From: Pycnopodia helianthoides
Taxonomy: Eukaryota; Echinodermata; Asteroidea; Forcipulatida; Asteriidae
Direction of reading: 5' to 3'
DNA length: 64,000 nucleotides
Assembly: GCA_032158295.1 (NCBI GenBank)
Contig: CM063263.1
Span: 7,622,501 to 7,686,500 of the forward strand
Shown: positions 4,956 to 25,975 of the stretch, piece after piece
How positions within the stretch are numbered: position 1 is the stretch's first letter
Layout of the letters: the number at the start of each line of letters is the position of its first letter
Position numbers and translations under genes: made by a program
Notes under the pieces: model-generated
The model's input: the letters and a program-made list of their open reading frames with translations, nothing else
What the model was told of the DNA's origin: nothing
Database searches by the model: none

Positions 4956-5062
4956 ACGGTCTATGAATAATCTTGTCATGATTGGTTTGAAATATGCCAC
5001 CTTAATCTACAAAATAGGTATTTAAAAACATGCTTGACATGCTCAAGTTTCATCCGAGTAAT

Positions 5063-5065
<3 letters not shown>

Positions 5066-5156
<91 letters not shown>
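5066..5156. repeat. (TA)n microsatellite
   Basis: About 45 uninterrupted TA units. The tyrosine/isoleucine ORF across it is an artefact of the repeat. Confidence 0.98.
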
Positions 5157-5603
5157 CTGTCTTTCCACTAATACGACGACCGCAGAAAAAAGTGGTCATA
5201 CGACGTCCACCTACAATTTTATGATGTTAGGTATTGTTTTATGTAAGGAAACAATCGTCTTTACCTAGAAAGGCATTTCACTTTCACAGCTTTGGTCTTG
5301 TATATTTAGTTTGCACATTGTAGGGGTTTTGCCGATTTTTTGGTGGGCGGGTAATTCAAAAAAGCGTTCCAAACTGTTTGTAAACCAATACAACGACCGG
5401 TGGCAAATGCTGGACCTAATTTATGGTCTGGCGCCCTCAAGTGGCCGAATCCATCTAGTTTTGTAGCACTGTTCGTACCGTAAAAAGGGGATTTTCAGCT
5501 TATAAATTGTGATTTAAGCCGCTTTTCTGATCAAAGAATTGACGTTCTTTAAAATGTGTTTTGTTTAATTAACCGTGCGTGACACCATCAACAACAACAA
5601 AAA

Positions 5604-6067
5604 CGCACGCTTACGCCATCGAACTGTGATCTACTGTCCGTTTGTATTTGACGTAATTCATTTTTTTGGAGAACCCAATTACTTTCAAATTGCCCAAAAC
5701 CTTTACATATAGGGCTAGACCCTTTTGACTAAATGAAACAAATAAAAGCACTATAATTTGAAAGGGGGCCACATTAGTCTATGTGTATGTTTATACCATA
5801 TGGTTCAATTTACCTAATGTGGCCATTAGCCAAAATGATGAAAAATGGCCAACAATTTCTCAGGGAATTCCGGGAGAGCTGGTTATTGATGGACTTTTGG
5901 GGGTGAAAAAGACCCCGGATAGTAACAAGACATTTACCATGCTATTTGGCTAGGTGTAGATGGGGAACCTGTAATATTATGAGATTTAAAAAAAGAAAAA
6001 ATTGCGGAGTACTGATTAATTAATTAAAAACGGACAGTGGACTACAGTTCGATGGCATCACGCAAAT
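5604..6067. mobile_element. MITE-like element with about 40-bp imperfect terminal inverted repeats
   Basis: The left arm at 5604-5647 contains GCCATCGAACTGTGATCTAC and CTGTCCGTTT. The right arm at about 6027-6067 is its imperfect reverse complement, containing AAACGGACAG and TACAGTTCGATGGC. The interior of about 370 bases is AT-rich and non-coding. No clear target duplication was identified. Confidence 0.65.
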
Positions 6068-6639
6068 TCTATTATTTAAAATACTTTCTAAATAAAAGTA
6101 ATAAATCTTTGTAATAACAATAATAACATTAAAAATGATGTGCTTATATTTTGGAGAAACGCATCTCGGAGACCCCCAAAACCAATCTTCATTTCTTTTC
6201 TTTGATGGAGCTTGTTTTGATCAGTTCCCCTCCTTCTTAAAACTTAGAACATTTTGGGAAACGCATACACACTCTATATGAATAGTGGGGTCCGGCGCCC
6301 ATCGAGGGCTCGCATAGGACCCTGAGATGGTTTGAATAAAAAAAATGTAATCCTTGGTAAAGGTTCAGCTTTTCTTGGTTAGGCCTATCTTTTGCGGAAA
6401 AGTTTAATTCATGTTTTTTTTTTTCTTCCAATCATTTTTAGTCTCTGACACTTCCTTACACGAATTTTACAGCATAATGACTATTTTAAAGTTGTTGTTT
6501 TTGTTTTGTTTTTTAGCTTAGGCTACTTGTGAATAATTATTTAATCATTTGCTGAGCACAGGATCACTTCACTTTGTGTACTTATTTCATATATTTGGCT
6601 TCTTTGTTTAGTGCTTGGCAACATTGGGTGGGGGTGACA

Positions 6640-7460
6640 GGACATCAGTATGCCCCATCTAGGTGTGCCCCATGGCACACGAGTTTGGCTCCACCCCCCC
6701 CCCCCTCCATCACCGCAGAGGAATAATGGAATCATGGTTATTTTCATATAACTGCCCTCCAGGTCCCAATCACGGCATTCATCGAAGTCCCCTTTTCTCT
6801 GAAGATAACTCCCGAATAAATCTGATAGATGATTTAGCCGCCAAAGGACGACCGCCGAATAAAAACTGAATGAAACTACTATTGTAGTATCAGCCGCCAT
6901 AGGACGACCAATTTGAACAACCGTGCATGCTCAATGTGGGACAAAGTGTCCTCTAAGGATGGTGGGGGGTGGTGGGGTGTGTGTGTTTGTGTTGGGGGGG
7001 GGGGGGGGATGATTGTGTGGGCCACCCAAATCAAAAAGTGTGAGTGTAACGCCCCTCCCTTCCCAACCCCAACCCCAGTTTTTGTGCGTCTGAACATCTC
7101 AGCCGCCATAAGACGACCAGTCAATAAAACTCCGTTCTTAGAACGACCATGACCAATTTGAACAATTATGGCACACAATTTGAGTATGATCAACCAAACT
7201 CCCCGCTGAGGAATATCATGGTTATTTTTTATATTAACTGCAATTTAGGCCCAGTCACGGGATTCATCATAGGCCTTAGTCCCTTTTTCTCTGAGGGTCA
7301 CCACAGTAAATATAATTCCCGAATATCTGATTGATAGTTGATTTAGCCGCCATAGGACGACCGCCCAATAAAAAGCCGTTCTTAGAACGACCAATCATTT
7401 GAAGTTCAGTCTTAAGTCGACCAAGACCAATTTGAACACGAGTTTGATCTCAAACCGCCA
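6640..7460. repeat. About 260-bp tandem repeat family, cluster 1
   Basis: At least three units in tandem. The hallmarks in order are AGCCGCCATAGGACGACC, CCAATAAAA, CCGTTCTTAGAACGACC, a CAGTCTTAAGTCGACC-like block, GACCAATTTGAACA, CATGGCACACGAGT, CCCGCTGAGGAATATCATGG and CAGTCACGGGATTCATC. Starts of the first hallmark are near 6835, 6890, 7100 and 7345. There is no long ORF. The repeat family is unknown to me. Confidence 0.8.
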
Positions 7461-7599
7461 ACCACATTAAAAAAAACATTGAATTATATTATATTTTATT
7501 TGTATTAATTAATTTATTTATTTTTGGCATCAAAGAACCCTTTATTACAATCTGAGTATCAAATCTGGAATTAACTGATGATTCCTGGATGGATCTGCT

Positions 7600-9110
7600 A
7601 TAGTATTAGCCGCCATAGGACGACCGGCCTATATACAAGAACCCGTCTTGGTTAAGGATGGTCGTGGTGGTGGTGGTATACGTAATTATGTCCGCTAGAA
7701 CATTTGAACATCTCAGCCGCCATAACCGAACTCCGTTCTTAGAACGACCAGTCAAGTGAAATTCAGTCTTATGTCGACCAAGACCAATGCGAAAGTCCAT
7801 GGCACACGAGTATGACCCAACCCCCTCCATCCCCGCAGAGGAATCATTAAAGGAACACGTTGCCTTCAAATCTCTGAAATCTCATGAAATTTTACTGTTT
7901 GGAGGTGTTCCTTATACTTATTAAGAGTTGTTCTTGCAATAAAACACCTTTAATGTGTTATAATTAGTGAATGGTAATTAAAAAAAACAAACATTGACCT
8001 CTGATCCCCGAGACATGTCCTGCGAAATGTATACGTTTTTCAAGCCGTCAATACGATCGTCGATGCAATAACGGTAACGGGTACCAGACCTTCTTACACC
8101 ACACAAAGCATCGGTGTTACTAGGTTGGCCCCGCTAAAATCTTACATTGTACGAGAACCCTGTCTTCGCGTCGTCTACTGTACTGCAGCATGCAGGGGGA
8201 GGTCTATGGGTGGTATGGTCGCGGGGTTTTGCTTCTGCTGGTACGTCCCTGGACGCCCGGACGGACCGAGACGTGGGGACTTGCTACTTAATTATTTAAC
8301 GTAGGCCTATGTTTTTTCTTTCTTTTTTCATTCATTTATTAACTGGATATTTATTGGAATACAATAAACAGATGGTAATCGTAACATTTTTAATAAAATA
8401 ATTGCTCAGTCGTAGTTCAACAGCTACGACTGGAAATAAGACTAATGGAATTTGTCCGCCATTTATGGGAGTCAAAATCTCCCATAAATGGCGGAGCGTT
8501 TTGTTTCGCGAAAGTTATCAAAAGCGAAGCATTTCCAAGGCACGTTTGTGTGGATCATTATATTCTCCTTTTAAACATCTTTCCGACAGTGCTCATTATA
8601 CATCAAACGCTTGTTATAGCCCAAAAGCGCCCAACAGCGCCCAGCAGCGACCAACCCGAAGGCAACGTGTTCCTTTAACTGCATGCCCTGCAGGCCCCAA
8701 TCACGGGATTCTTCGAAGACCCTTTTACTCGGAAGAAATTCCCGAATATCTGATAGTTGATTTAGCCGCCATAGGACGACCGCCCAATAAAAAGCCGTTC
8801 TTAGAACGACCAATCATTTGAAGTTCAGTCTTAAGTCGACCAAGACCAATTTAAACAACCATAGGCTACCGCACGAGTGTGATCCAAAACCACCGACCAG
8901 GAAGCAGGAATCATTGTTATTTTCATTTCCGCCTTGACGGGATCCTTGCATCAAAGTCCTTATATATTACAATCTCTGAGTATCAAATCTGGAAATAACT
9001 GATGATCCCTGAATTAATCTGCGATATTATTAGCCGTCATAGGACGACCGTCCTTTATACAAGAACGTTCACTTCTTTGGAACCCCATAAGTTGACGACC
9101 AAATTTTTAT
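7600..9110. repeat. 260-bp repeat family, cluster 2, split by a MITE
   Basis: The same hallmark blocks recur at 7610-7848, 8684-8870 and 9030-9110. The cluster is interrupted by the TTAA-flanked element at 7851-8674: the repeat text stops at GCAGAGGAATCA and resumes at ACTGCATGCCCTGCAGG, matching the uninterrupted order near 6715-6765. Confidence 0.7.
7851..8674. mobile_element. TTAA-flanked MITE (family B, long form)
   Basis: The terminal inverted repeats are AGGAACACGTTGCCTTC at 7851 and GAAGGCAACGTGTTCCT ending at 8674. Each is bordered by TTAA (7847-7850 and 8675-8678), the target duplication used by piggyBac and Kolobok-type transposases. An internal perfect palindrome at 8455-8495 (TCCGCCATTTATGGGAG arm) resembles the core of the other family B copies. 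No transposase ORF is present, so it is non-autonomous. Confidence 0.8.
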
Positions 9111-9256
9111 TATAAGAATAAACTTTTCTGTGATTTCATATGGGGGGGCAAGAGGGGGGGGGCAGCAAGAGGGGGGCGCAGGCCCCTCCCCTGCCACCCT
9201 GCCCCCCCTCTTGCCCCCCATATGAAATCACAGAAAAATTTATTCTTATAATAAAT
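9103..9256. repeat. G/C-tract fold-back element
   Basis: Arms of about 55 bases: left ATTATAAGAATAAA...TTCTGTGATTTCATATGG then a G-rich tract; right the C-rich mirror, then CCATATGAAATCACAGAA and TTTATTCTTATAAT. The arms differ by only a few bases. The centre (about 9160-9200) is purine/pyrimidine-skewed with GGGGGGGCA blocks. Confidence 0.8.
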
Positions 9257-9715
9257 AAATAGTTTAAGGCTGCATTAATGCTGCCGTAAAAAGTAAAACT
9301 TGTATTCACATCAGTATGTCATGATGCAATTGGTGCTCGATATGGGGCAGAGGGAACCCCCCCTTCCTATTGTGTCTTCATTGTGTGCTTGGAATCTCAT
9401 GAATTCTTTTGAGGATTTAAGGGGGGGGGGGTAGTTCTATACAAGAGGAAACTAGTGTGTATGGGAACATTGGGGGGGACCCCTCTACCCTATATCGGGC
9501 AGGCTATATCACGATGTGGCCTATAACGCAGTCATGACAAATGCATGGAAACGTGCGCACAAACGATCGTATTGGCGGTAAATGTACGTTGTGGTTTGCG
9601 GTTACAGAGAGTGCAGGAAGTCACAAAGTTCAGTTTGATGTGGGGCTGAACGCTGACCAATATCTCTGTTAGCACAATGTGGTCAGAAGCACAACAGAGA
9701 GATTTAAACAGCAAA

Positions 9716-9836
9716 ATGGCCGGCGAAAAAAGTTAGCTCAGACCATTCTCCATATCAAAGCGCTCGTCTTTGCCTCGTGCTCCAACACCCAAGAGGCAGA
9801 GTCGGGAAAATACAGAAGATTATGATTCTGATGTTG
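9716..9836 (+). other. Possible first coding exon with an in-frame TAG (doubtful)
   Basis: An ATG in good context (AAAATGG) is followed six codons later by TAG (9734-9736). The same frame then stays open for 33 codons, reading RSSLPRAPTPKRQSRENTED-like polar sequence, to a GT donor (GTTG|GTAATC). No downstream exon can be linked to it. It may be a decayed exon, an exon with a sequence error in the preceding A-run, or chance. Confidence 0.2.
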
Positions 9837-11865
9837 GTAATCACTGTTGGTAATTTAATCCTTGCAAGGGCGTCGATTGCTACTGAAAAGTAGGGGGACG
9901 GGCGAGCAAGTCATGAAAATTTTTTCGTTTTTCTTTTGTTTTAATTGATATTTTGTTTGTGTGTAGGGGAAAAGTGAATCATACTTGTAGCCTTGTGTAA
10001 ACAGACCATTAAGATGAGACTAGTGTGCCCACAAACAAATATTTTGATGGTTTTGTATTTCAAGCATCATTAGAGTGTTTTTAGAGGACTAAAGCACACA
10101 AAATAGTAGTACCGGAGCTTACTCAAACTGTTCAAAAAGCTTTAGTTATAGTAATTTATAAAATTCTTCCCTTGTTAATGGAGAACCATGTGTGGAAACT
10201 AAAGCTTTAAAGAACGTATGAGGCGATATGTGTAGTTCTTAATAGGGAAGGGGGTTGTGGTTAAGTTAAAGGGAAAAACCAGAAGGGGAACAGATGTTGG
10301 TAGGGGAGGGGTCTGGAAAGGATGGTTTGTGTGAAGAGGAGACTGCCAAAATAAACTTGAGTGAAATCATGGAGGAATAGTGAAATGCACCGTGGAGCGG
10401 GAAATTCGGAACCAGATCCGGTGCTAGCAAAGATAGATTGGCAGCTAGAGGGAGTGAAGGGAAGACACATGTCGGTGTGGTCTCTGGTAGTAAATCATCC
10501 CCTGACAGTTTGGATGTTGCTTTTTGGTGGACAACAAGTGTCTCCGTTATCCAAGTACTCAAGGCAATGGTTAAAACAGAGCTAATTTTTGATTGTTTTT
10601 ATGTAACCACATGAAGGAAAGAGAGGGGTTGTTTGTGGGTTTTTTTAAAGGGGGGTGGAAGGGGAAGGGGTTGTTTGAACTCACTAAAAAGAACCTTTTT
10701 TCCTGTTGGGACGTAGCCACTGAAAATAATTTTATAGTATCCATTTTAATGTGCTTCGGGAGTCCGGCGTTTATCGTGTGTCTTCGAAAAAACACTGCTT
10801 CTTCGACAAATCTTGTCATGGCCGAAACTGCACTACATTGTGTGCATTGTGCGATTGTAACAAAATGTAACACATTTGCACGTGCGCGCACACACAGACT
10901 TTCTTTGTGGAGGGATCATGTACCGTACATTATAGCATACACAAATGACGCATAACTTGAATGCTAACAAGGTATTTAAGCGGAATTTTGGCTTTTATAT
11001 ATGTCTTGGACGAAACTTGTTGGTTATTGTCTGTATTATAGAAATGGAAAATGGGCCCAAAATACCATTCTGCGCGTGGTCCATCAGAGCCAAATAAGAA
11101 AATAAAGAAAACATTTTAACGTTTAATGCTCGATAGTTTTATTTTAACAAAAATTGTAATGAAATATTGAATCAAGGAAATGGTGTATATTTTATATTTT
11201 TGTTGCATATTTCTGATGAACAGTCAATCAAAAAGTGGGGGGGGGGACATCTGATATGCTGATATGCTTATATGCTGGTCCCCCCACCCATCGACGCCCT
11301 TGAATCCTTGTATACAGTCGAAAAGTTTTATCTTATAAAAATGACAAGTTCTCTAAGATTTGGTTGTTTTCGCAATCTTTTGTTACCTGCAAACTATGTA
11401 GACTTTAGAACTGCATTGGTGTGTATCAACTATCAGTTAACATATTTAATGATAATCTTGCACTTCTTTACCCCCCTCATTTTTGTTTTTTAATCTTTGC
11501 CCCCACTTTCCCCCTCCCAAATGAAAATGTCTAGTTACGCCACTGCAAGGGTTGTGATGGTATTGGTGCAGGCGCGGATCCAGGGGCGTTGGGTCGCACG
11601 CCCCCTTTTCTTCATGCAAAAAAATAAATAAGTAAAAAATAAGAAAAGAAAGAAAAAATTAGGAAGAAAAACAAAACAAAAGAGAAACATACAACAACCA
11701 GAAAGGAAAAAAAAGTTCAAAGAAGGAGGGAAACACAATATTATTAGGGCATTACACGTCAGACTGCACATAGCCTAGCTGCTGTAATATCTAGGAGTAG
11801 ATACTCCACTGTGCAAGTTTGGGGCTACAAGTCAGACGACATCTATGGCTCGGGCTGTGATTTGT

Positions 11866-11974
11866 TTTTCTGCAGCATACATGTACTTCGTCAATACAGT
11901 CAACAGTTAAGAGATAGGCTGTTGTTCCCTATCCCTTAACTGTTGACTCCATAGCCGACGTGTGCTGCAGAAAA
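11866..11974. repeat. Fold-back element
   Basis: The outer arms TTTTCTGCAGCA and TGTGCTGCAGAAAA, and the inner arms AGTCAACAGTTAAG and CTTAACTGTTGACT, are inverted around GAGATAGGCTGTTGTTCCC. There is no ORF. Confidence 0.75.
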
Positions 11975-12397
11975 TAAGGCGGGCTAAAAGGAAAAAAGGT
12001 TTCTTCAAGTTCTACATATTTTTGTCACTTTATTTCAGGTTTACGTTTTCGTAATTTTTGCAAATAATATTGATGTAATTACGGAGTAAAATGTTTCTAT
12101 CCGAGCAAGTTCATAGTGTGCCAATAATTTGTATACCCCTGCTTAAAAAGCTGTACACCTATATTCAATAATGGAATGGTCCATAAAGTTTTCCCAACGT
12201 AGCGCGCGGTTAATATCTAGGTCAACTCAAAAGTATTAATAATATGTACAATCATGTACATGTGATTTTAGCTGTCTTTTTTCTGACTGAACAAATTCGG
12301 GGTAACAAAGTCATATCCTGCCTTGTGGCCCTATTACTTGTGGCCCTTATTATTGCATCCCTGATTCACTAGCTGCAAACTCGAAAATTATGTTTAA

Positions 12398-12784
12398 AGG
12401 AACATCACAGAATTGGTTTTTGCTAACAAAACACTGGTTGGCAGTGTAAGCACTGTATGTATTCCACCATATACATAAACTGACAAACCTGTTGAAGTTT
12501 GAGATCGATCAGCCATCTGGGTCACGAGAAAATAGTGAAAAAACCGATTACACATTTGCATGAAATCATATAGATTCAACAAAATGAATAAAACGCTCAC
12601 TGAGCGATAAACTCCAATCGGAAAATTAGTTTATTCATTTCTCATCAAATATGTCATTTCAGACAGAAATATTTCAAGGGATGTTTTCTACTATCATCAT
12701 CATTAGACCGTGTAAGTTTTATGTAAATCTATGATCACAAAGTATTTTTTACAAGTTTTTTCTTACCAATTCTGTAATGTTCCT
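12398..12784 (+). mobile_element. TTAA MITE family A, copy 1
   Basis: An element of 387 bases between TTAA duplications (12394-12397 and 12785-12788). The termini are AGGAACATCACAGAATTGGT and ACCAATTCTGTAATGTTCCT. The interior shares landmarks with the other copies: GGCAGTGTAAGCACT, GGGTCACGAGAAAATAGTG, AAACGCTCACTGAGCGATAA and TTTCAAGGGATGTTTTCTAC. It encodes no transposase. Confidence 0.9.
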
Positions 12785-12964
12785 TTAATGATGTTTATAT
12801 GATGAACCTTTGCTAAAAAATAAATAACCTACAGTGGTCAAATATCGCCTGCATGCACAGAACATCTACGAATCCAACATTTTCCGGGACCCTTAAACTT
12901 TGCTTCACGCTACGCGCTCGCAGGTGTCCCAACTTTCCTTTCGCCGTGTTTATACATTTGCTGA

Positions 12965-13725
12965 CATATGCAGCAAAATGCCCCCCCCCCCCCGTTTGGA
13001 AAATCCTTGATTCTGTGGGCCACCCCCCTCAAAAAGTGTGAAAATAACGGCCCTCTCTTCCCAACCCCACCACCCCTGGTTTTGATGCATATGGCCTTTA
13101 GATCTATTAGTACTAGAACATCTGAGCATCAGCCGCCATAGGACGACCGGCCAATAAAAACTCCGTTCTTAGAACGACCAATCAAGTGAAATTCAGTCTT
13201 AAGTCGACCAAGACCAATTTGAACATCCATGGCACACGAGTCCAGTATGATCAACCAAACTCCCCGCTGAGGAATATCATGGTTATTTTAATATTAACCG
13301 CAGTTTAGGCCCCAGTCACGGGATTTATCAAAGTTCCCTTTTCTCTGAGGGTCAACACAGGAAAGATAATTCCCGAATATCTGATAGTTGATTTAGCCGC
13401 CATAGGACGACCACCCAATAAAAAGCCGTTCTTAGAACGACCAATCAAGTGAAAGTCTGTCTTATGTCGACCAAGACCAATTTGAACATCTATGGCACAC
13501 GAGTCCAGTATCAACCAAACTCTCCGCTGAGGAATATCATGGTTATTTTTATATTAACCGCAATTTAGGCCCCAGTCACGGGATTCATCATAGGCCTTGG
13601 TCCCTTTTTCTCTGAGGGTCAACACATGAAAGATAATTCCCGAATATCTAATAGTTGGTTTAGCCGCCATATGACGAACGACCAATCAATTTGAACATCC
13701 ATGGCACGCGTCACACACGAACTGA
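12965..13725. repeat. 260-bp repeat family, cluster 3
   Basis: Three tandem units whose AGCCGCCATAGGACGACC hallmarks begin near 13131, 13396 and 13662, about 265 bases apart. The third unit is truncated. The leading part (C-run, TGTGGGCCACC, CAAAAAGTGTGA) matches 6990-7070 in cluster 1, so both clusters derive from one longer composite unit. Confidence 0.8.
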
Positions 13726-13987
13726 CGTGACCCTGATGTGTTACAAAAATAATCGCGCCGGGTATCCGAACCAAAGCAGGTAACCAGGCTTACCGCCATG
13801 TACGTAGTGTTATAAGTCTATGGAGGCTGTAGTTGTTGTGTATGATTCAATGTTGAAGTGCAGACTGCTGCAGTGCCACCACTCACGACCAGCAGTACTA
13901 ACTAGGCTTAGTTGAGTAGGGCCTACATTGAAATCAACTGTTCCTTTTTTCACAAATTAAATTCGTCATACACTGAACAAGTTCAAA

Positions 13988-14143
13988 ATGGCTATTAATG
14001 AAGTAATAGTTTGTCATCCCACCTACCGAGAGAAAATTATGGAACTAGAAAAATTAACACGGAAATTAGTCATTGCCGTGATTGTCCTGTTCATCTTGGT
14101 GGCATTTTTGATTGTTTTCACCATACTTGCTGCATTTATGTAA
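13988..14143 (+). CDS. Small ORF: 51-residue single-pass membrane peptide upstream of the SET-BRCT gene
   Basis: An ATG in good context (AAAATGG) opens 51 codons ending TAA at 14141-14143. Residues 1-27 are polar and charged (CHPTYREKIMELEKLTRK). Residues 28-50 are a continuous hydrophobic helix (VIAVIVLFILVAFLIVFT) and the chain ends AAFM. A consensus donor (AC|GTGAGT) follows the stop within two bases, and the next acceptor is at 14,417. The ORF could therefore sit in the 5' leader exon of the SET-BRCT transcript as an upstream ORF. It could also be a one-exon small gene or chance. No family is recognised. Confidence 0.4.
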   Translation: MAINEVIVCHPTYREKIMELEKLTRKLVIAVIVLFILVAFLIVFTILAAFM

Positions 14144-14424
14144 ACGTGAGTAGTAACTTGTAGTGTAGGCCTATACACAACTTAATTTAAACTGATCATC
14201 GGTTATTTTTGTCAGTAATGTCACAAGACACAAGTGAAAGGTAAAAGTCTAAAGAAGGTGCAGGCTCATTGTCAAAGTATGATAATTATTTATTAATGTT
14301 AAATTTATTCAAGTCTAAGTCACTCTAACCAAGGGCAATAATTTTCAAAAAAATGTGTATCTTTGCTTTCATTTTTTGGTTTGAAACTAACTCTTAAAAA
14401 GTCTCTTTTTGTTACAGAATTATA

Positions 14425-17400
14425 ATGCCCTTTCCCAGAAGAGTATCTCCAATTGCTGAGGCAGAACATTTCTGTCGATCAGGGTTGGATAAAGAAGGGT
14501 TTTGCCACAGATATATTGATGACTCTATAGGTAAGCTTAAGTGAATCACCACTTCAAAATAGATTATACTAGAAACAAAATCAATTATATGCTTTTTAAT
14601 ACTGATGTAGGTTGTGCAGCTGACAGTGAGCTATACAAATTATATTTTTATGTGAAACCGCTATATAGATAATGTTTATTCTCAGTCATTTTCTGCAAAT
14701 GACTGGGCAATTCAAACCCAGTCTAGTGGGTAGTGTTATTCTATTTTGCTCAAAATTGAAAGGGGCAAGCAAATGTTCTCTAGTGTTAGACAGTTAAAAA
14801 AAGACTGTTCAGTTAAACAAATTACTCTAATACTATAGCATTTAAGTTTTGCAGCAGTTTTTCACAACATGTATGGTCATCATTAAAATTCAAGGCAGAC
14901 ACTTGTGGGAATAGTGCGCCTTCATTTTTTGGCCTGATTTGTGAAGTTGCTTGTAGCAAGGTGAAAACAAGGTGAACAAATTACACTGGTAGAAATTTCT
15001 AGGACTTTGTGTCTACTATTTCAAATTGAATGCCAATTTTGTGTGACTAAAATGGTGATTTTCTTTTCAGGGTATGGCCTTTTCACAACAAAAAGGTTTG
15101 AACAAGGAAATTTTCTGTTAGAGTACAGAGGACAGGTCAGCAGGGCTATAAGCGAAGCTGATGAAGCTAGTAACAACTACGAGTTCATCTATCTTCACAA
15201 TGGTGTTCAGTACAGGTGAGTGCATTCATAGCATTTTAGTTGCTTTAGAGACAAACCCTCAATCAAATGGTGATTTATGCATTCCCATCTATATTTTTTT
15301 TGTCACTACTCAATTCTGTAAAAATTTTACATCATCAGCATGTATTTTCTGCACAGCACAATGCCCATGACTTGAAACAATAATTTATTATTTGCCCAGT
15401 CTTCCATGTGAACTTGTTAACTTCTTGGGAACTCGTAGCCTCATTAAAGCACTAGGTCTTGAAATTTATGGTGGAACTTTTGATTAACAGTTGAGATATG
15501 TAGAGCAGTATGACATAAACATGATAAAGTACTACCAAAATGATCCCATTTTGTTTAGTATTCCACCTTTGTTAGTCCCCCACAACAGGTTGAAACAAAA
15601 TAATGATATTTTAGGTGAAGCCTGTTGTTCAATTGATGAGTACTGGGACAGTGTAATTTTCAGTTTAGTAGGATCTTCTCAGTACCAGAGCTTTTATAAC
15701 TTAACACTTCTGAATTGAAAAAATAGTTAAAGCCAGAATGTCAGATTTATTATTAAGAATGATACACAAGTATCACTATTAATTGATATTACAAAGTATA
15801 CATGCAGTTCTTCTAAAATAAATGATGACTTTTCTAAAAGTGCAAAACGAATCTGACAGTAATCGTCTTTTTCCTCCAACAGGGTTGATGCATCAAATCC
15901 CGATTCATGCCAGGCCCGGTACATCAATGATGATAATAAACACCCTAACTGTAAAATGAAAAAAATTGTAATCAACAACACGCCTCATCTCTGCCTATTT
16001 GCAATTCAAGATATTGAGGCAAATCAAGAACTACGGTACGATTATGGACAAGATGACTTCCCATGGCGAAAGGTACTGAACCAATTGTTTTTTTCTCTTT
16101 TGGGCAAACAAATCACACTAAAGAGAGTTATTTAAATTATCATACAATTTCAGAAAGTGTAACTCGCATGATGCCCCCAAAAATGAAAAACGTTGCATTA
16201 GTGTATGTAGTTGCCCATTCCTGGCCAATCAGATAAAAAATTAAATTCTTTATCATTTAATTTTTAAAAAAGTAGGTGGAATTTGGTTTTTTCAATTTTC
16301 TGAAAATATTTTAAATACAATGTAACTTGCGTGACAGAAAAATGTGCCTCGCGTGACGACCTTTAGTTTTAATCTTTTTGAAAAAAGAGCAAGCACCAAA
16401 GCAGCCTAAACAAAGCTTCAAAGATGCTGTTAAAAAACAAAAGATGAATTTTACTTTTAAAAAGCAAGAAATGTGTTGTTACGTTAAAGTATACAATTCA
16501 GCATTGCTTTCTATGCATGAGCCACACACTGGTTTGCAGCCACAAATAAGGCTTCAGTATAAATTGGCAGAATTCAACTAATGGTTCCCCTAAAAATTCA
16601 TTGCAACTTTTAAAACTCTAAAAGCCCCAAACCCATATTTTTCATGTTGATTGAGTAGTTTACACTTATTTTAAAGCAAACTGATGACTCATGTCTGTGT
16701 GTTGCATATTAAACTAAAGCTTAGTCGGTGAAAGACCACAGGTTTTTGAAGCCCATGTTAGTCTGAGGATGGATCCTAAACACAAGGGATTTAGGATTAG
16801 ACTTACAATTTTAAACACTGTTTATCAATATTATTACTTTACGTGTTGTGTTTTTAACTGTGTAAAGTGCTTATACTTTGTTACACTTTTTGAATGTTTT
16901 AGAAGTCTACCAACCTCCCAGCTCCTGTGTTGGCTTCTACAAACCTCACTGCAGCATCATGCTCCGATTGTTGTCCAACAAAAGCATGTCTACTTAATAC
17001 ACTCCTGTCCTCAGAAAAAGTGGTAAGCTAAAAACAAAATTGTACAGTAGAACGTCGCTATACAACACTGAAATAACTAACATTCGGCTATATCAAACAA
17101 AGCCTTTGGCTCTTGATTTTTGTACACAAAGTGAACCAAACATCTGGCCGATGCTGATGCGAAATTACCGGATTTATCAATGTTTAATTAACAATTAAAA
17201 TAGCATTTAATGTGAAACACAATGCTCACTGCTCAAAATGACAGACAGGCAGTATAGTTCCCAATTGATAGAATAGAAAATCAACTGTTATCTAAGGTTT
17301 TCTTTGAAAATGTACATTATGGAAGGACGTCCAATGTTTCTACATGAGAGCATGATGTCCCATTCAAAAGTTACAAGTCGATCTCAGTATCACGCACAGG

Positions 17401-20400
17401 GGACCAGCCTCACAATCGGTTAGGGATTCTTTTTTTGTTTTCATTTTAAACTTAAGCTTCAAAGGCATGGTACAATTTTGGTAGTTACTCCATAAATTAG
17501 ATACGATAAAATTTTACTTGAAAATGATCACTGGAGACCTGTTGATAGTATAAAATACATGTATTTTAAGAAATGACTCCCTTTGAAGTAACATAGTTTA
17601 GCAGAAAGAGATTCTTTTTTTCCCAAAATGTCAATCTGAGAAAGGCTTCTCATGCATCTGAAAGCGCACAATTCTATGCAAAAGTTGCTTTTGTTTTCTT
17701 TCTTTATTTGTTCACTTTTAATTTCTGATTGAGCCCAAATTTGTACATGTTTGCTAATTTATGCATGTATGTTGGGATGCACCAAGTGCCTGTAATACAT
17801 TGAAAATCATTTTTCAAATAACAAAAGTAAAAACCATTTTACATGTAAATTTTTGCGAACATATGCAAAGTTTAAACAAGATTACAGTAAAACAAATTTG
17901 ATAAATTTGTGTACAAAAAGTTGTCGCAAACTGGCCCACAAAGTGTCCTTCCATACCTTCACTACACATTTCCGGTCTATCTGTAAAAGGGTCTATGTTG
18001 AATCTATGTATGAGCTGACATACTGGAAGGTCCACCAATAATGGGTTGTTGATTTTGTTATTTGTGCAGAGGAAAGTTAAACAGCTGGCATTTTCAACCA
18101 ATAGTAGGTGCACAAAAGAATTTAACTCATCCACCACCCATGTGATCACTGACGATGCAGGTAACATAACCAAAGCGTACATGGCTTTGAATATCTTGAA
18201 TATTATTGACATATCAAAGTGATTGTTATGCAATATAAGCCATTTAGATAAACAACAGCCACATGTCGTTACAAGCAGTTGTCAAGTTATCCTAATGTTT
18301 TACAAACTTGTAGAATTTTTCATATAAACAAATAATTTCTTCACAATTTTTTGAAACAGTCACAATTCTGATTCATGATTTTCATGAATTTTAGTAGGCC
18401 TGTTCAATATGCATACAATTTGTATTTTTAAATAATAGATGGTGAAAACGTGGCCAGAAGGAGTTACAAGCTCTTCCAAGGACTGGCTGCCAAAGTGTGG
18501 GTGGTGAGCTACAAATGTAAGTGACTTTAACACCAATAAATGTGACGCTGTTATTATTGTCTTAAAGCTTGTGAGGTTTATAAGTAAAGATTTGAATGCT
18601 CAGTATAGTGCATCAATTTGCCATGTTACCAATTCTATATTTTTTGGCAACATGTGGTTGTACTTACTTGCACGTATGATGCTTGTGTTTACATCTCCTC
18701 ATGAGAAGAACATGTACAATTTATTGGATAGTCAGTTTGTTGTAGTTATATTTACATACACAGCACCGTACTTTGCGCAACAATGTCACATAAATGCATT
18801 GCTTTCGCTGGTGGTGAATTATGCAATAGGAGGCGCTGAATATTCATTAGTAAGATAGCGTTGGACCAACGGCCGATTTAGGGTCTGTCCGTAGAATGTG
18901 GTCACGTGGACCAGGGAGTCCTTGTTGGTAACTACAAGTTATAGGAAATCTCCTTATGGCTCGATATGCTCATTGATTGATTGGATATTGGTGTCTCACG
19001 AGAGGGCGTCATTATCCAAAAAGTTACAGTAAGTTTTTTAACACTATTGACATAAATTATTCAGTGTGCATAATAATAACTGGACAACTGTCAATCACTC
19101 CTCCATCATTTCCTTAATTATTTGTGTATTGTTTGCAGGGGTAACAGCTTCGTTGAAAACGGGGGTCTTACTCCCAGAAAAGGACTTTGAAATCCAGAGA
19201 ATTTGGACCAACGAGCTGAGTGAGGCAGATTTACCTTCACGGTGTGTACGGCTTGCCAGTACAAGCAAACTCTTTGCCAAGTACATGTTTTATGTTATTG
19301 GTCAATCTGTAGATATCAATAAAGGTATGTATGTTTCAAGTTGATTAAAATTATGATGCATAATATGATCATGATAATATATACACCTGATGAGAAGATC
19401 CTTTTCATTAGATTGGAGGATTGGAGGTGGCACGGATTAGTCACACCATTTTATGGAGTGAAATAGAAAGTTGCACCCTCTTAATTTAAGTAATCCTATT
19501 ATTGCTGCTTCCAGTTAAGGTTGTATTGAAAACCTGGATGTGACAGCAAAATTAAGGTTGAGGGTCTTTATGTGACATAGAGGTCAACAGGACCAGGTTA
19601 ATACTTGGCTGCAGATTGGGCCACAGCACCTTTTAACCATTACATGGTGCTATAAAAAGGAACAGGTGTCATACTTAGCTATGCATACCTTAAAGGAAAA
19701 CACTGAGCACTTTGAGACACACGTCGGGTGTGATAAAGCTCTATATATAAGAATCGGTGTCATGCTTTACCCAGCACCCCTATCTGACTACAGAGGGCAC
19801 TATTTCAGTTCTTTTCTCGTGCGTTTATCTTTTCTGTATGTTCGGCAGTTATTGTGTGACCATTAGTTTTGCTGTTGTGTTCCGAGTGAAGGTTGCACAT
19901 ACGGAATAAAAGCTTTTTCCTTTACAGTTACAATTATTAATATTATTATTATAATATAAAAACACAGATTTTATATAGTGCTTTATCACACCCGAAGGGC
20001 GTCTCAAAGCGCTCATTATTTTGCTTCAAGGTATGTGGAGCTTTGATTGGACCCAGGTCCTTTACATAGCACCTTTTAATGGTTTACAAGGTGCTTGTGG
20101 CATAGTCTGCAGCCAGCCAGACCAGAAAACACCGGTACCAACAGCTTTACATCTTATCCGAAGGACAAAGCAATCATGGTTAAGTGTCTTGCCTCATGAC
20201 ACAAGTGTCACGAACAGGACTCGAACCCACCACTTGCTAATAAGAATTAACTGAGCTTGAGTCTGGTGCTCTAACCGCTCAGCCACAACACCCCCTCCAA
20301 AAAAAAAACAAACAAACAAACAAACACCCCAACATCCCCCCAGTCTTTAAATAATTGATAAATGTTAATTTAATTGAAAAAAAGTGTGCTAAAAATTGCA

Positions 20401-23400
20401 AAAATATCTACCGAACTTTCAAATTTAAGCCCATTTTCCTTTAATTTGGTAGGGAAAAAAATGAGCAGTGGGAAGTGTTATTTTGGAGAATGCTAACCAA
20501 AAAGCAACTTTGGGTCAAAATTGTCACTTTTCCATTTCCCAAACCCCTCCCCCAGTTGTTTGGGCAAGTTCAGAGATTGCCTGAAATGCTGTTAAAATTG
20601 TTTCTCTGGGCAGATCAAGTACTTCATCTGCTGAGTTTGTGTGGTGGATCTACTTGGAAATGGACGCCCGAACGTAGTTGCAGGACAGATACAAATGAAT
20701 ATGCTGTTGTATTCATTGGGTCAGATTGGAGAAATCATCCATTTTTCAGGATATTTAATGGTATGTGTATTCAATTATTTGTACATGTGTGTATGGTTCA
20801 AACTAGAGAGATAAAAATGAATTAATTTGTTTCAATGTGCAGAGGTGATGCTAAAAATGAAAGGAATGCAGTGTAAAATTACTACATGAATGCTAAAAAG
20901 TTGATAGTAAATACAGTAGTTGTGTATATTGTACATAAGTACATTAATGGAAAAACGGGTAAGCATTTTATCAACACTGTTTTTCAATAACTTGCAGGAA
21001 ATTTTACCAAATCGGGGTTTTCTTGTCCTGAAAACACAAGCCCGAGCACTAATCGGTTTATGAATGGATTATTCAATGACTGAACTCTTCCTTGGCATGC
21101 GTCACATGTGATGTAGGCCTACAAGAGGTCAAATAGTAGCAAGTTACAATGTCAGGGAACATTTTTTACACAGGCTTCAGGAAATAGCAGGTTGGAATAT
21201 TTTTTCAGTTACACTTGTTTCAACGGGAGGGAAAGGTCAAGTTGGGTCACATTCTGAAATAAGATCTTTTGAAATGTTAATCTTTGAATGTAGTTTCACA
21301 CCCAATTGAGGTCATCTGCATTCAAATTTGTACATTTATTCGAGTGTTGGAGTCTCATGAGCTTTTTCTATTATGGCAATTTTGTTGTTAATTAGGTTCA
21401 GATAGGAGAAAGCAAGGTAACAAAAAAGAGTCCAGAACAATAGGTAACAATAGGTGTCAAAATTTTTTTTATTTTTTTTTTTTTTTTCAGTCTTGTTTGA
21501 TGTATTTATTTAGTGCTCAATAAATGAGCTGGGGCAGGTTGTGTACAATAAATTTTAACCCATTAACAATATAAATGAATAATGACTTGTGTTTCCTGTT
21601 GTTATAGCTTCACCACACAATCATGTGCCAATCATCACATTAGACTGGGTGTTTGACTGTATCATGTTGTATGCCATCCAGCCCATAATAAACTACGCCG
21701 TACATATCTCAGATGTTAATGCAGGTAGGCGTAACTGAAGATAGTCACTTACAGTTTGTCATGCCTTTCTTAATTTTTTGAATAAGCTTTTTGAAGAAAT
21801 TTAAACTTATGAATTAGCTTTTTGAAGAAATTATAATTTTCGCAGTTTAAGGAAGTAGTTTTAAATCAAAATTCTGGATGGTTTTGCATTATACATATCT
21901 TTTTTCCTTTTTTTTTATGCAAATAGACTGGATATAAGTGCTCTTTGAAAAAAATGTAAATCTCTCAGTTATACTCCACATCTTCAAATAACCACTTACA
22001 AGAGTCCAAATTCCCAAACTTTGGAAATTGGGATGGGGAATGGCCATAGGATCATTTTCCAAAATGTGCTTATTATTTGACTCGTTCATAAAAAGTAAAC
22101 AAGCAAAAATGGGAGTATCTTGTCTCAAAATAACATGTACTCCTTACCATATCATGGGTCTGCCTTGACAAACAAAAAACGATAAGCATACATTATTTCA
22201 AACTGTCAAACTTTCAAACTGTCGTACAGACGTTTCAGAATCGTCCCCCACCCCCATGTTTCAACACACTTTTATGCCACCGACTACTTGAAAAAATGTG
22301 TTTTCATGTTATATCAAAATAAAATATCAAAGCAAATGGACAATTCATGTGGGCACCACTGGGTCTCAATGACAACAAGTTATGCTGTATGAGTCACAGG
22401 TTTTTACATTATATAGTACCTGCGAGCGGTTCATTGTTCCCTAAATTCACGAAACTTTGCTTTAAAGGAAAAATGCAACGGAGAGCAAATTTAATTTGAT
22501 TGTGACCTGACATCTTTTGATTGTGACCTGATCTAATTTCTTAGATCGAATATTGAGGACTTCCAGATCCTTATGCAGGTTAATTGTTATTATTGTTTTC
22601 AGTTGACAGGGATGACTCTGATGAAGGAACTCAAGGAGGTGACTCCCATGATGGAGGTAAAGGAGGTGACTCCCATGATGGAGTTAAAGGAGGTGACTCT
22701 GATGATGGAGTTGAAGGAGGTGACTCTCATGAAGGAGGTAAAGGAGGTGACTCCATGATGGAGTTGAAGGAGGTGACTCTCATGATGGAGGTAAAGGAGG
22801 TGACTTCCATGATGGAGGTAAAGGAGGTGACTCTCATGATGGAGGTAAAGGAGGTGACTCCCATGATGGAGTTGAAGGAGGCGACTCTCATGATGGAGGT
22901 AAAGGAGGTGACTTCCATGATGGAGGTAAAGGAGGTGACTCTGATGATGGAGGTATAGGAGATGACTCTCATGATGGAGGTATAGAAGGTGACTCCCATG
23001 ATGGAGTTGAAGGAGGTGACTCCCATGATGGAGGTAAAGGAGGTGACTCTGATGATGGAGGTAAAGGAGGTGATTCCCATGATGGAGTTCAAGGAGGTGA
23101 CTCCTCCCATGATGGAGGTAAAGGAGGTGACTCTCATGATGGAGTTCAGGGAGGTGACTCTGATGATGGAGGTAAAGGAGGTGACTCTGATGATGGAGTT
23201 CAAGGAGGTGACTCTGATGATGGAGTTCAAGGAGGTGACTCTGATGATGGAGTTCAAGGAGGTGACTCTGATGATGGAGTTCAAGGAGGTGACTCTGATG
23301 ATGGAGTTCAAGGAGGTGACTCTGATGATTCAATTAGTGATGGAGGTGACTCTGATTATTTAATTAAGTGATGGGGATGTCTCTGATGATGGAGTTGAAG

Positions 23401-23457
23401 GAAGTGACTCCCATGATGGGGGAGATGAAGTTGATTCTCATGATGAAGATACAGGAG
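14425..23457 (+). CDS. SET-domain (KMT5A-like) plus tandem BRCT (BRCA1-like) fusion gene, 3' end not found
   Basis: Ten exons with matching phases: 14425-14530, 15071-15215, 15883-16072, 16903-17022, 18070-18160, 18439-18516, 19139-19324, 20614-20760, 21608-21724 and 22603-23457. All have AG/GT borders. Residues about 20-145 form a SET domain like KMT5A: IGYGLFTTKRF (SAM loop), LLEYRGQ, YINDDNKHPNC and catalytic ELRYDYG, then PWRK. After a 40-residue Ser/Thr/Cys-rich linker come two BRCT repeats: STTHVITDDA, VARRSYKLFQGLAAKVWVVSYKWVTASL cut by introns, LLPEKDFEI, then LHLLSLCGG and PIITLDWVFDCI. The RxxKxF residues that bind phosphoserine in BRCA1 are present. Such a protein would be nuclear and pair a methyltransferase fold with a phosphopeptide reader. 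The last exon seen ends in phase 1, so more exons should follow, possibly in the damaged region after 25 kb. Confidence 0.8.
19583..20295. repeat. Two SINE pieces in inverted orientation inside a SET-BRCT intron
   Basis: The plus-oriented SINE tail at about 19,583-19,765 (GGCTGCAGATTGGGCCACAGCACC, then GAGCACTTTGAGACAC, TGTGATAAAGC) faces a minus-oriented copy at about 19,975-20,295 (TATATAGTGCTTTATCACACCCG, CCGAAGGACAAAGCAATCATGG, ending GCTCTAACCGCTCAGCC). The latter's reverse complement starts like a tRNA with an A-box. A (CAAA)n tract follows at 20,300-20,325. Confidence 0.65.
22603..23457 (+). repeat. Coding 27-bp minisatellite (9-residue acidic repeat exon)
   Basis: Roughly 26 units of 27 bases encode G-G-D-S-(D/H)-D-G-(G/V)-(K/Q/E). 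The exon starts VDRDDSDEGTQ and ends DSHDEDTG before a GTGAGT donor. One base is missing at about 22,751 (GACTCCATGATGG instead of GACTCCCATGATGG) and one extra base lies at about 23,366 (ATTAAGTGATGG instead of ATTAGTGATGG). The two cancel, so both exon ends stay in the gene's phase. The long antisense histidine/leucine ORF across it is a by-product of the repeat. Confidence 0.8.
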
Positions 23458-23459
23458 GT

Positions 23460-23851
23460 GAGTCTAGTCATTGTTCATTAGATGATGATAGAACAGTTTG
23501 TCAACTTCCAATACCTGTGGAGGTAGTATGGACTGTTCTCCCTCCAACTATGTTTTATTTAGATATTAGTGAATCCCACCTAACCTTGTTTTGCCCAACC
23601 AGAATAAACAACCAGCAAGAGATCTGATATCATTTATTATATATGTGGTTTAATTGTACCCTTTTCAATAGACTCAAAGGCTATGTATATGAAGGATATT
23701 AAAACTTACTTTTTGAAATATTTTTTTTTCATTTGTAAAGGAAATAAACATAGTGCTGAACCACAGGTAATACATATATTTTACTGTTTCTTAACATTAA
23801 TCATGACAACTCTTGCCAAACCCAAGCACTTACATGTTAAAAGACAACCCC

Positions 23852-23884
<33 letters not shown>

Positions 23885-24124
23885 GGGGGGGGGGGGCTTC
23901 CATTGAGCACGGTTAAAAATTAAGTTAATCTTATAACCAATACAACCTTTAGATTGTTTTCCTCTTTTATATCTGTTTAAAATTTTGTGCCTAAATTAAC
24001 ACAGTTACTGTTCTTTTGTTTTAATTTTAACAAACAACATTAATTATAGTTTTGTTTATTTTTGTGTTTGCATTGAAACATGTTTATTGTTTTTGTGTTT
24101 TTGTGTTTTTGTGTTTTTTGTGGG

Positions 24125-24156
<32 letters not shown>

Positions 24157-25240
24157 CCCCTGGAAAGGAGTTTCCACTTAACTCTTGAAAAATCATGACA
24201 TTTAAAGTTGTTATGTTCAAGAAGGAAATGCCTACTCATTGAGCTTTTTTTATTTTTATTTTTATTTTTAAGGAGTCTTGAAAATTTTACCTTATAAGGA
24301 AAATAGCCTCAAATTTATGTGCAACCCCGCAAGATACATATTTTGCTTTAGGAGTTTCCTAGTCTGCATTAACTGTTCATCATGATGCATGCTCAACGTT
24401 TAAGTCAATGCAACAATGTGATGTCTTGGTCATGTTTGTCGTGGTCAGGGCTATTGTTTGTGGGTCAAACTAAAAGGGAATGGCACCTCTTTCATTCTCT
24501 CATTAGTGTAGGAGACTTAATATTATTTTTATCTGTTGTTTTTCATTTAAGGTTTTTGCTTGCATTTATTGCTTTTAATCGCTTTTTGCTAGTTTACCTT
24601 TATAGTGCAATCTTTACAACCTAGGCTGTTACTATGAACAAAAGAAAAAGGACTGGTTTGTTCGATATGTCTGTGGCTCTATCAACGATTACTTTCAACA
24701 ATGAGTTGTACATTTAGACCTGCGTCTGTCTCCCTTTATACATGTACGTGTAGGAACATTATAGTTCCCTATTATTGAATGTAAAACATGTAAAGTGGTT
24801 GAATAATGAAAAAGCAAAGTTGTGCTCTTTAATTTACTGCATACTGTGAGGTTTTGCAGGGTCCATTAACAGTGTTGCTGACTCGAATCGGTGACTTGGA
24901 TGCGATTCTGACTTGTGTTACAATTGTTTGAGAATTTGACTTTGCTTGGCTTTGCCTTGACTTAAAAAAACATTACTTGCAGCTTGATTTTATTTGAACA
25001 AAAATGACAGTAGACTTGACTTTGGGAAAAAATTACTTGGTTACAACAGTTTATATTGGTATTTAGGGAATGAGGGTGGGTGCTTTTTGGTGATTTTTAA
25101 AAAAGGAAAACAAAATCTGTATTTAAATCATATTGGTGTGAATTTGGAATTTGCCTTTCTGTACGGAAGAAAAGAAATTAGAGAGATGCACAGGTGGTCC
25201 TCTAGTAATAAAATTATGTTTTCTTGATTTTTAAAAAATT
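23460..25240. other. Non-coding stretch, probable intron or intergenic
   Basis: There is no supported exon. The stretch holds a decayed half copy of the 485-665 fold-back at about 23,490-23,565, an A-run at 23,852-23,870, a G-run at 23,885-23,897, and a TTTTTGTG/poly-T tract at 24,085-24,153. Confidence 0.55.
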
Positions 25241-25242
25241 TG

Positions 25243-25975
25243 GATGAGACACGGAATGAACCACTTAGAAGACCAAACCGACCTTGTATCTACTGCGGCC
25301 TAATGCAGACACAACTTAGCCGTCATCTAAAGAGAAAGCACAGAAAAGAAGAGGAGGTCAAAGCCGCACTCCAGCTACCTCGTACAGAAAGAATTGAAGC
25401 AATGAGTCAGATAAGGAAAGATGCAATCTTTCAAGAAAATGTTTAAGAGAATAAGGACTGACTGTCGGCAGCCATTGTTGCGAGAGCGTCAACAAGGAGA
25501 TGCAGAAGTTGTCATGTGTGGACAATGCCATGGATTTTATAGTGTTCCCGCATATGGCGCCACAAACAAGTTTGCCATAGGGCATGTAGTAATAAAGTGT
25601 CGTCAGTGCCTGTTACATCATTGCTTCAAACTGAAGTTGGAGGGCGATTTAATTCCGAGGTTCTTCTTCGTTTTCGTAATGACGACATTGGATCAATCTG
25701 CAGGAGTGATCCGATGATAGTCCATGTGGGAAAAAAGTTATGGGCAAAATCTGTGCAAAGAGCAAAAGTATCATTATGAATGATATGAGGAAGTTGGGTA
25801 ACTTACTTCACAAGATGAGGTGCATTTCAGAGAACACGACCCTCACAGGGGAGGATATTTTAAAGAGACAAAATTTCAGTTTTTTTGGAAATGCTCTTGA
25901 CAGGCTTACAGACAAATCTTGTGATGAGATTAAGGCAGGACTCCGATTAAGTTTGGGTTACCTTATTAAAAACCC
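25243..25975 (+). pseudogene. Frame-broken ORF with CxYC...HLKRKH zinc-finger-like start
   Basis: Three overlapping frames join into one protein-like sequence. Part 1 (25,243-25,446) has RPCIYCGLMQTQLSRHLKRK, a Cys2-His2-type knuckle, then ERIEAMSQIRKDAIFQENV. Part 2 (25,421 frame) has EVVMCGQCHGFYS. Part 3 (25,597 frame) has LLRFRNDDIGSICRSDPMIV and GKKLWAKS. Part 4 (25,740 frame) has IMNDMRKLGNLLHKM and TGEDILKRQNF. The order and spacing resemble a multicopy family of uncharacterised proteins that I recall from fish and marine invertebrates; that is memory, not a search. At least three frame breaks (about 25,445, 25,600 and 25,777) make it a pseudogene or an error-laden copy. No acceptor was found at the start. 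It could be a further exon of the SET-BRCT gene. Confidence 0.5.

Follow-up and report, generated by a model that had tools for sequence, protein, structure and literature searches.

SET and BRCA1-type BRCT exons inside a dispersed mobile element of the sea star Pycnopodia helianthoides, read as the probable N-terminal half of a tyrosine-recombinase transposase

A SET domain fused to a mariner-type transposase is known from SETMAR, a single domesticated primate gene. DNA transposons moved by a tyrosine recombinase (YR) are also known in animals, as the Cryptons of sea urchin and other animals; the passages of Kojima and Jurka (2011; PMC3212892) that deal with them describe elements with only short direct repeats and no terminal inverted repeats, describe animal Cryptons as encoding only the YR, and name DUF3504 as a Crypton-derived domain family. 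Endogenous nimaviruses are described, in the relevant part of their report (PMC10871703), as carrying microsatellite-targeting YRs with a C2H2 zinc-binding domain, the targets being (TAACC)n or 28S rDNA. Here we describe a stretch of 64,000 nucleotides from Pycnopodia helianthoides (assembly GCA_032158295.1, contig CM063263.1, positions 7,622,501 to 7,686,500 of the forward strand; hereafter the window) in which nine exons encoding a SET domain and a tandem BRCT pair lie within one copy of a dispersed mobile element. Our reading, to which we give a probability of about three in four, is that a giant, intron-containing YR DNA transposon has a transposase whose N-terminal half these exons would encode. 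That they belong to a YR mobile element is very likely.

A preliminary description of this DNA, made from its letters, had proposed nine consecutive exons with consensus splice sites and compatible phases, and these were found to be real. All borders are AG/GT and the phases fit, with exon 1 counted from its ATG; the joined exons comprise 1180 nt and encode 393 amino acids without a stop, and the borders proposed for exons 3, 4 and 5 (Table 1) are exact. The proposal that a KMT5A-like SET domain shares one frame with a BRCA1-type tandem BRCT also held. The Pfam-A search of the 393-residue protein found SET (E 2.3e-16, residues 36-139), BRCT (3e-12) and BRCT_2 (2e-10), and among solved structures, compared by sequence, the matches were to the BRCA1 tandem BRCT (2.2e-19) and KMT5A (2e-13; 8.8e-14 with SET alone). 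The BRCT repeats had been placed closest to BRCA1/BARD1; the BRCA1 half of that placement stands, whereas BARD1 was rejected as the source on its weaker structure match (3.6e-8).

The exons are part of a repeat. A piece of 261 bp comprising the third exon and its intron borders has at least ten matches in the 479-Mb genome, and seven of these, with the window copy counted in, are 100% identical. Among matches longer than 250 bp, window positions 5061-25972 correspond to copies on three contigs (C3, C15 and C16) with an identity of 99.3-99.6%, introns included, and a fifth copy at the end of contig C24 matches window 5061-19823 at 99.2% until the contig stops. The copies on C3, C15 and C16 keep matching each other until about 36.1-36.6 kb (matches longer than 800 bp); these complete copies are about 31 kb each and the flanks outside them are different from one another. 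An array of (TA)n was observed at the left end of all five examined copies (window, C3, C15, C16 and C24) and at the right end of all three complete ones. Just inside both arrays lies a perfect 17-bp terminal inverted repeat, CCACTAATACGACGACC, identical in C3, C15 and C16, and further inward the C16 copy has an inverted repeat of 832 columns at 76% identity with many CATAGGACGACC-type motifs. The inverted ends and the preferred insertion site are those of a terminal-inverted-repeat element, in which any target-site duplication would be unreadable inside (TA)n. This is a young, dispersed element. The right-hand 17-bp terminal repeat was not found in the window, and the window copy is therefore cut at 25972; being also frameshifted, it is dead. 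Four copies of the SET-exon piece were seen on contig C24 (264,736 bp): three that are 100% identical, lying in both orientations, and one at 97%.

The spliced frame has equal length and no indel in the four copies in which all nine exons were read (window, C3, C15 and C16), with 0, 1 and 2 substitutions against the window in the other three, and the cut copy on C24 has no change over 916 exon columns. Changes were observed in 3 of 4456 exon columns versus 53 of 23610 columns of introns and flanks (Fisher p 0.027, weak because the copies are related).

The exon series was found to continue past 21724 with an acidic exon of 855 nt beginning at 22603, and the phases from exon 9 to a recombinase exon are compatible in all three complete copies by way of a putative 26-nt exon. 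The recombinase reading frame has C2H2-like Cys/His residues followed, near its end, by NARRGGE, GKGSRKLVP, FRHRAST, HMGHS and NANIYQ. What is left of it in the window is a remnant whose longest match contains three stops. On the 3' side of the recombinase, the C16 copy (L021 7043-8930, with no window counterpart) holds nine exon-like units in tandem, of which seven code for PRKKRRV, and shifted matches between copies suggest that this array is variable. Among the open reading frames (ORFs) outside the gene, ten of the longest were compared with Pfam; none matched above its cut-off, and one match fell below it at E 0.074. No viral gene was recognised among the ORFs examined, short exons being outside the scan.

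We take the downstream protein to be a tyrosine recombinase on its catalytic pattern, with the statistics as support; the assignment is supported but not proved. A profile of twelve members, eight of them from other loci of the same genome, aligned with XerD, XerC, FimB, FimE and lambda Int over 144 columns with an hhalign E of 0.0018 (0.48 in the reversed control), which put Arg, GKG/GKR, RH/RK, GH and Tyr in register with the bacterial recombinases. Several observations weigh against the assignment. The hhalign probability of this comparison is only 14.6%, and smaller profiles gave E 0.054 with four members and 0.097 with eight. Pfam, PDB-sequence and PHROGs searches of the YR proteins recognised no recombinase, and against an HMM of five bacterial recombinases they scored no better than shuffled sequence. 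The alignment itself is imperfect: the catalytic part is empty for L055, L050 does not reach the Tyr, the first Arg is Gly in L056, and pieces are missing from the gene models P0004 and P0007. Of the three complete copies, moreover, one has an uninterrupted recombinase frame; in the other two it is frameshifted.

The association of SET with YR extends beyond the window's family. In the genome, 65 SET rows and 78 YR rows, with matches within 5 kb merged, gave 38 SET loci and 59 YR loci. Within 20 kb, 23 of the 38 SET loci have a YR downstream and five (all on C15, where such loci cluster) have one upstream, in both cases on their own strand, and none has a YR on the opposite strand; with C15 left out, the downstream arrangement accounts for 14 of 24 loci versus no upstream and no opposite-strand case. 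Five of the 23 linked loci are the window's own family and five form a second family (C5, C10, C18 and two on C11), four copies of which are 98.1-98.7% identical to the fifth. The 15 SET loci without a YR match within 20 kb downstream count against our reading, the contig ending within 20 kb at four of them (two on C24, one each on C273 and C489). Contig C15 alone carries 14 of the 38 SET loci, 13 of these within 8-13 Mb, which indicates a regional concentration of such elements.

A single annotated chain with both SET and YR was found for three of the 27 public SET relatives, namely P0014 of the sea urchin Strongylocentrotus (884 aa), P0013 of Acanthaster (674 aa) and P0024 of the scallop Argopecten (898 aa, with its YR part cut); the nearest named relatives are from Patiria for SET and from Acanthaster for YR. 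On the strength of these chains and of the fitting phases between exon 9 and the YR exon, we take SET, BRCT, acidic repeat, zinc finger and YR to form one transposase, and SET-BRCT and YR are likely to be one polypeptide. The alternative is that SET-BRCT and YR are two genes of one element, one for a separately transcribed accessory chromatin effector and one for the recombinase. About 9 kb, with the BRCT and acidic exons in between, separate the SET exons from the YR in the window's family, the joining of the frames needs an assumed 26-nt exon, and the SET relatives P0001 (Patiria) and P0002 (Amphiura) have no YR match, all of which would suit two genes; set against the three chains and the compatible phases of every complete copy, this arrangement appears unlikely.

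The preliminary description had looked to relatives for the SET-BRCT linkage, and here the outcome is mixed. None of the 27 public SET relatives lists a BRCT domain, but that search admitted only proteins below a length limit, so that a full SET-BRCT-YR chain of about 1200 aa or more may have been missed; the linkage is repeated in the same genome, at a diverged locus on C273. This locus has BRCT exons 5 to 9, with unchanged borders in exons 5 to 7, preceded on the same strand by a SET exon at a distance of about 15 kb. Protein-kinase exons (Pkinase 8.8e-15; L042 4121-5060, minus strand) were observed between the SET and BRCT exons of C273. On C38 and C116, the last exon has weak matches (E 0.4) that precede a YR by 3.4 and 5.6 kb.

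The BRCT pair is, as judged from sequence, a descendant of the BRCA1 gene, and the evidence lies in its nearest structure, in the positions and phases of its introns, and in the borders shared with the host BRCA1 and C273. The five introns that interrupt or flank the BRCT part fall at codon 188 (phase 0) and at codons 218, 244, 306 and 355 (phase 1), which, read by hand on the structure-search alignment, correspond to BRCA1 codons 1663, 1692, 1718, 1778 and about 1823. Human BRCA1 introns, taken from the variant names in parts of three reports, lie before c.4987 and c.5153 and after c.5074, c.5152, c.5332 and c.5467 (PMC2731042, PMC8893798, PMC10504444). Four of the five positions in the element coincide exactly with human introns and the fifth is at most three residues off in a gapped stretch, the phase being kept in all five. 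If introns were placed at random, with eight human introns counted and two of these assumed, at least four exact coincidences would arise with a chance of about 6.5e-8. The host BRCA1 is a separate gene (C21:9617396-9618191; 46-63% identical to human over two stretches) whose exon borders coincide with those of the element at 1692, 1718 and 1778, whereas the two are only 48% and 29% identical in two matched stretches. The shared intron positions and phases together with this low identity indicate that genomic BRCA1 exons entered the element, not as a processed copy and not recently.

Readers other than BRCT may stand behind SET elsewhere. In P0024 of Argopecten irradians, a single annotated protein, SET is followed by FHA (1.3e-12), a phosphopeptide reader, and then by the N-terminal part of the recombinase. 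The brittle-star protein P0002 (Amphiura), which has no YR match, has PAH behind SET (5.2e-11), and a fish SET protein gave a C1 match below the cut-off (0.0025). We regard an exchangeable reader, with one example each of FHA, PAH and C1, as a lead and not as a rule. FHA as an alternative reader in the host genome's own elements was rejected, as none of 13 FHA matches lies at a SET locus.

Whether these exons act in transposition can be weighed against the view that they are passive cargo, picked up by the element and without a role in its movement. Such a view would account for a variable BRCT part, the domain being listed in none of the 27 SET relatives and the C11 family near 12.07 Mb showing none between its SET and zinc-finger parts. 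Set against it are the link of SET to YR at many loci of the genome and their fusion in two echinoderms and one mollusc, the lower rate of change in exons than in introns (weak, as said above) and the two relatives with another reader behind SET, and we consider passive cargo improbable. A further reading makes the exons a regular gene of the host, coding for a damage-linked methyltransferase as had first been supposed, that lies by chance in segmental duplications. Nine clean exons with an intact frame would suit it, but it was rejected as highly improbable since the exons belong to a dispersed repeat with a recombinase. Both ends of this repeat are common to the C3, C15 and C16 copies, where perfect inverted repeats lie inside (TA)n and the flanks differ, and the window and C24 copies share the left end. 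In addition, none of the 27 public SET relatives, searched up to the length limit given above, lists BRCT, and the host BRCA1 is located elsewhere.

The catalytic Tyr and the residues of the NHS motif have established roles in SET domains, and the window protein has the Tyr (in YDYG) and the NHS Asn, as in the KMT5A type; the Tyr is kept in all 27 relatives and the Asn in 26. The NHS His has given way to Asp in 23 of the 27 relatives (three have His and one a gap) and likewise in the window protein, a point against our reading; the SET domain is probably active. For the BRCT pocket we assume the BRCA1 residue numbering and the pocket roles of S1655, R1699, T1700, K1702, F1704 and M1775. R1699, K1702 and F1704 are identical, T1700 is replaced by Ser and M1775 by Ile, and S1655 falls outside the printed alignment. 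The three kept residues make phosphoserine binding plausible, and the BRCT pair may well bind phosphoserine.

The predicted protein order would be SET, tandem BRCT (from BRCA1), acidic repeat, C2H2 zinc finger, YR and repeated basic PRKKRRV exons. In this order of parts the recombinase would act at the element ends beside TA steps and join the element into (TA)n. Replication forks stall at long (TA)n arrays, which attract BRCA1-type complexes, and BARD1 reads unmethylated H4K20. From this knowledge we infer that the BRCT pair might dock on phosphoserine proteins where forks have stalled or breaks have formed, for example at long (TA)n arrays, and so guide insertion, and that SET might methylate chromatin, at H4K20 or another lysine, at the donor or target and bias repair or silencing toward the element. 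That BRCT or SET steer integration or repair in this manner is a tentative proposal.

The features of the window copy are collected in Table 1. Two further features were observed in the window: a small ORF of 51 amino acids at 13988-14143, just 5' of exon 1 on the same strand, with one hydrophobic stretch and no Pfam match, and a tandem array of 104-bp units at 48461-49231.

Table 1. Coordinates (window positions) of the element copy and of its exons
Feature	Position	Strand	Basis
(TA)n array adjoining the left end, insertion site	5067..5155	.	(AT)n at the left end of five copies
Mobile-element copy, right side cut	5156..25972	+	99.3-99.6% identity to C3, C15, C16
Left terminal inverted repeat CCACTAATACGACGACC	5165..5181	+	Same 17 bp inverted at the right end of C16, C3, C15
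Left subterminal inverted repeat, CATAGGACGACC-type motifs	6904..7651	+	76% over 832 columns to the right end of the C16 copy
Exon 1, start codon, N-terminus before and into SET	14425..14530	+	N-terminus aligns with P0002
Exon 2, SET domain	15071..15215	+	Splice borders, Pfam
Exon 3, SET domain, YDYG and PWRK	15883..16072	+	Splice borders, Pfam
Exon 4, linker	16903..17022	+	Splice borders, copy comparison
Exon 5, BRCT 1	18070..18160	+	Begins at the intron position of BRCA1 codon 1663
Exon 6, BRCT 1, 78 nt	18439..18516	+	Bounded by BRCA1 D1692/W1718 introns, same phase; borders as in host BRCA1 and C273
Exon 7, end of BRCT 1 and start of BRCT 2	19139..19324	+	Bounded by BRCA1 W1718/D1778 introns; borders as in host BRCA1 and C273
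Exon 8, BRCT 2	20614..20760	+	Pfam, intron comparison
Exon 9, end of BRCT 2	21608..21724	+	Pfam, intron comparison
Exon 10, Asp/Gly-rich acidic repeat on a 27-bp minisatellite	22603..23457	+	Open in C3, C15, C16; frameshifted in the window copy
Putative exon 11, 26 nt, puts the acidic exon in phase with the recombinase exon	23741..23766	+	Splice signals only
Broken 5' remnant of the zinc-finger YR exon, catalytic domain missing	25243..25972	+	Matches C21:7647743-7648479 (window 25243-25979)

If the reading is correct, a methyltransferase and a BRCA1-derived phosphoserine reader within a recombinase would tie transposition to chromatin marking and to the DNA-damage response, in a recently dispersed giant element of a sea star that can be tested in cells. 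It would also call for caution, as gene models in animal genomes that are annotated as SET, BRCT or 'KMT5A-like' may be transposon genes. A broader and rather doubtful suggestion is that of an undescribed animal superfamily of giant YR transposons whose recombinase starts with SET and an exchangeable reader (BRCT here, FHA in the scallop, PAH in the brittle star and perhaps a C1/PHD-type domain in fish), the reader targeting damaged or stalled sites such as (TA)n and the SET domain rewriting the local chromatin. In the open-access literature, with subscription papers, preprints and Repbase outside its scope, our search found, among the papers ranked highest, no SET-bearing YR element and no such giant animal YR element described. 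YR transposons as such are already known; it is the SET-BRCT front end that would be new and unexpected.

Among the known systems, the element resembles Cryptons, as described by Kojima and Jurka (2011), in being a DNA element moved by a YR, which is judged here from the catalytic pattern and the profile comparison. It differs from them in its 17-bp inverted ends (in all three complete copies), its length of about 31 kb, its introns and its SET and BRCT domains, and membership in Crypton proper was rejected because of the inverted ends. DUF3504 was not among the Pfam-A matches (E up to 1) of eight YR proteins, the presence of this family in the Pfam set used being unchecked. The Starships of fungi are likewise giant and mobilised by a YR, the recombinases being compared here by description only; they are fungal and rich in cargo genes, and the descriptions consulted, which are partial, do not mention a SET-BRCT front end. 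With the endogenous nimaviruses, as described in their report, the element shares C2H2 together with YR and a large size inside a simple-sequence repeat, the recombinases again being likened by description, whereas those are viral genomes and the sea-star element lies at (TA)n. The likeness to SETMAR lies in a SET domain fused to a transposase; the sea-star fusion would differ in being carried on dispersed and recently moved elements and in using a YR. Finally, KMT5A/PR-Set7 and BRCA1 are the closest solved structures for the two domains of the element. Compared with KMT5A, the SET domain is element-borne and has Asp instead of the NHS His. BRCA1 has an N-terminal RING whereas the element protein starts with SET (no search aimed at RING was made), and its BRCT pair is borne on the element, far diverged from the host BRCA1 in the matched stretches.

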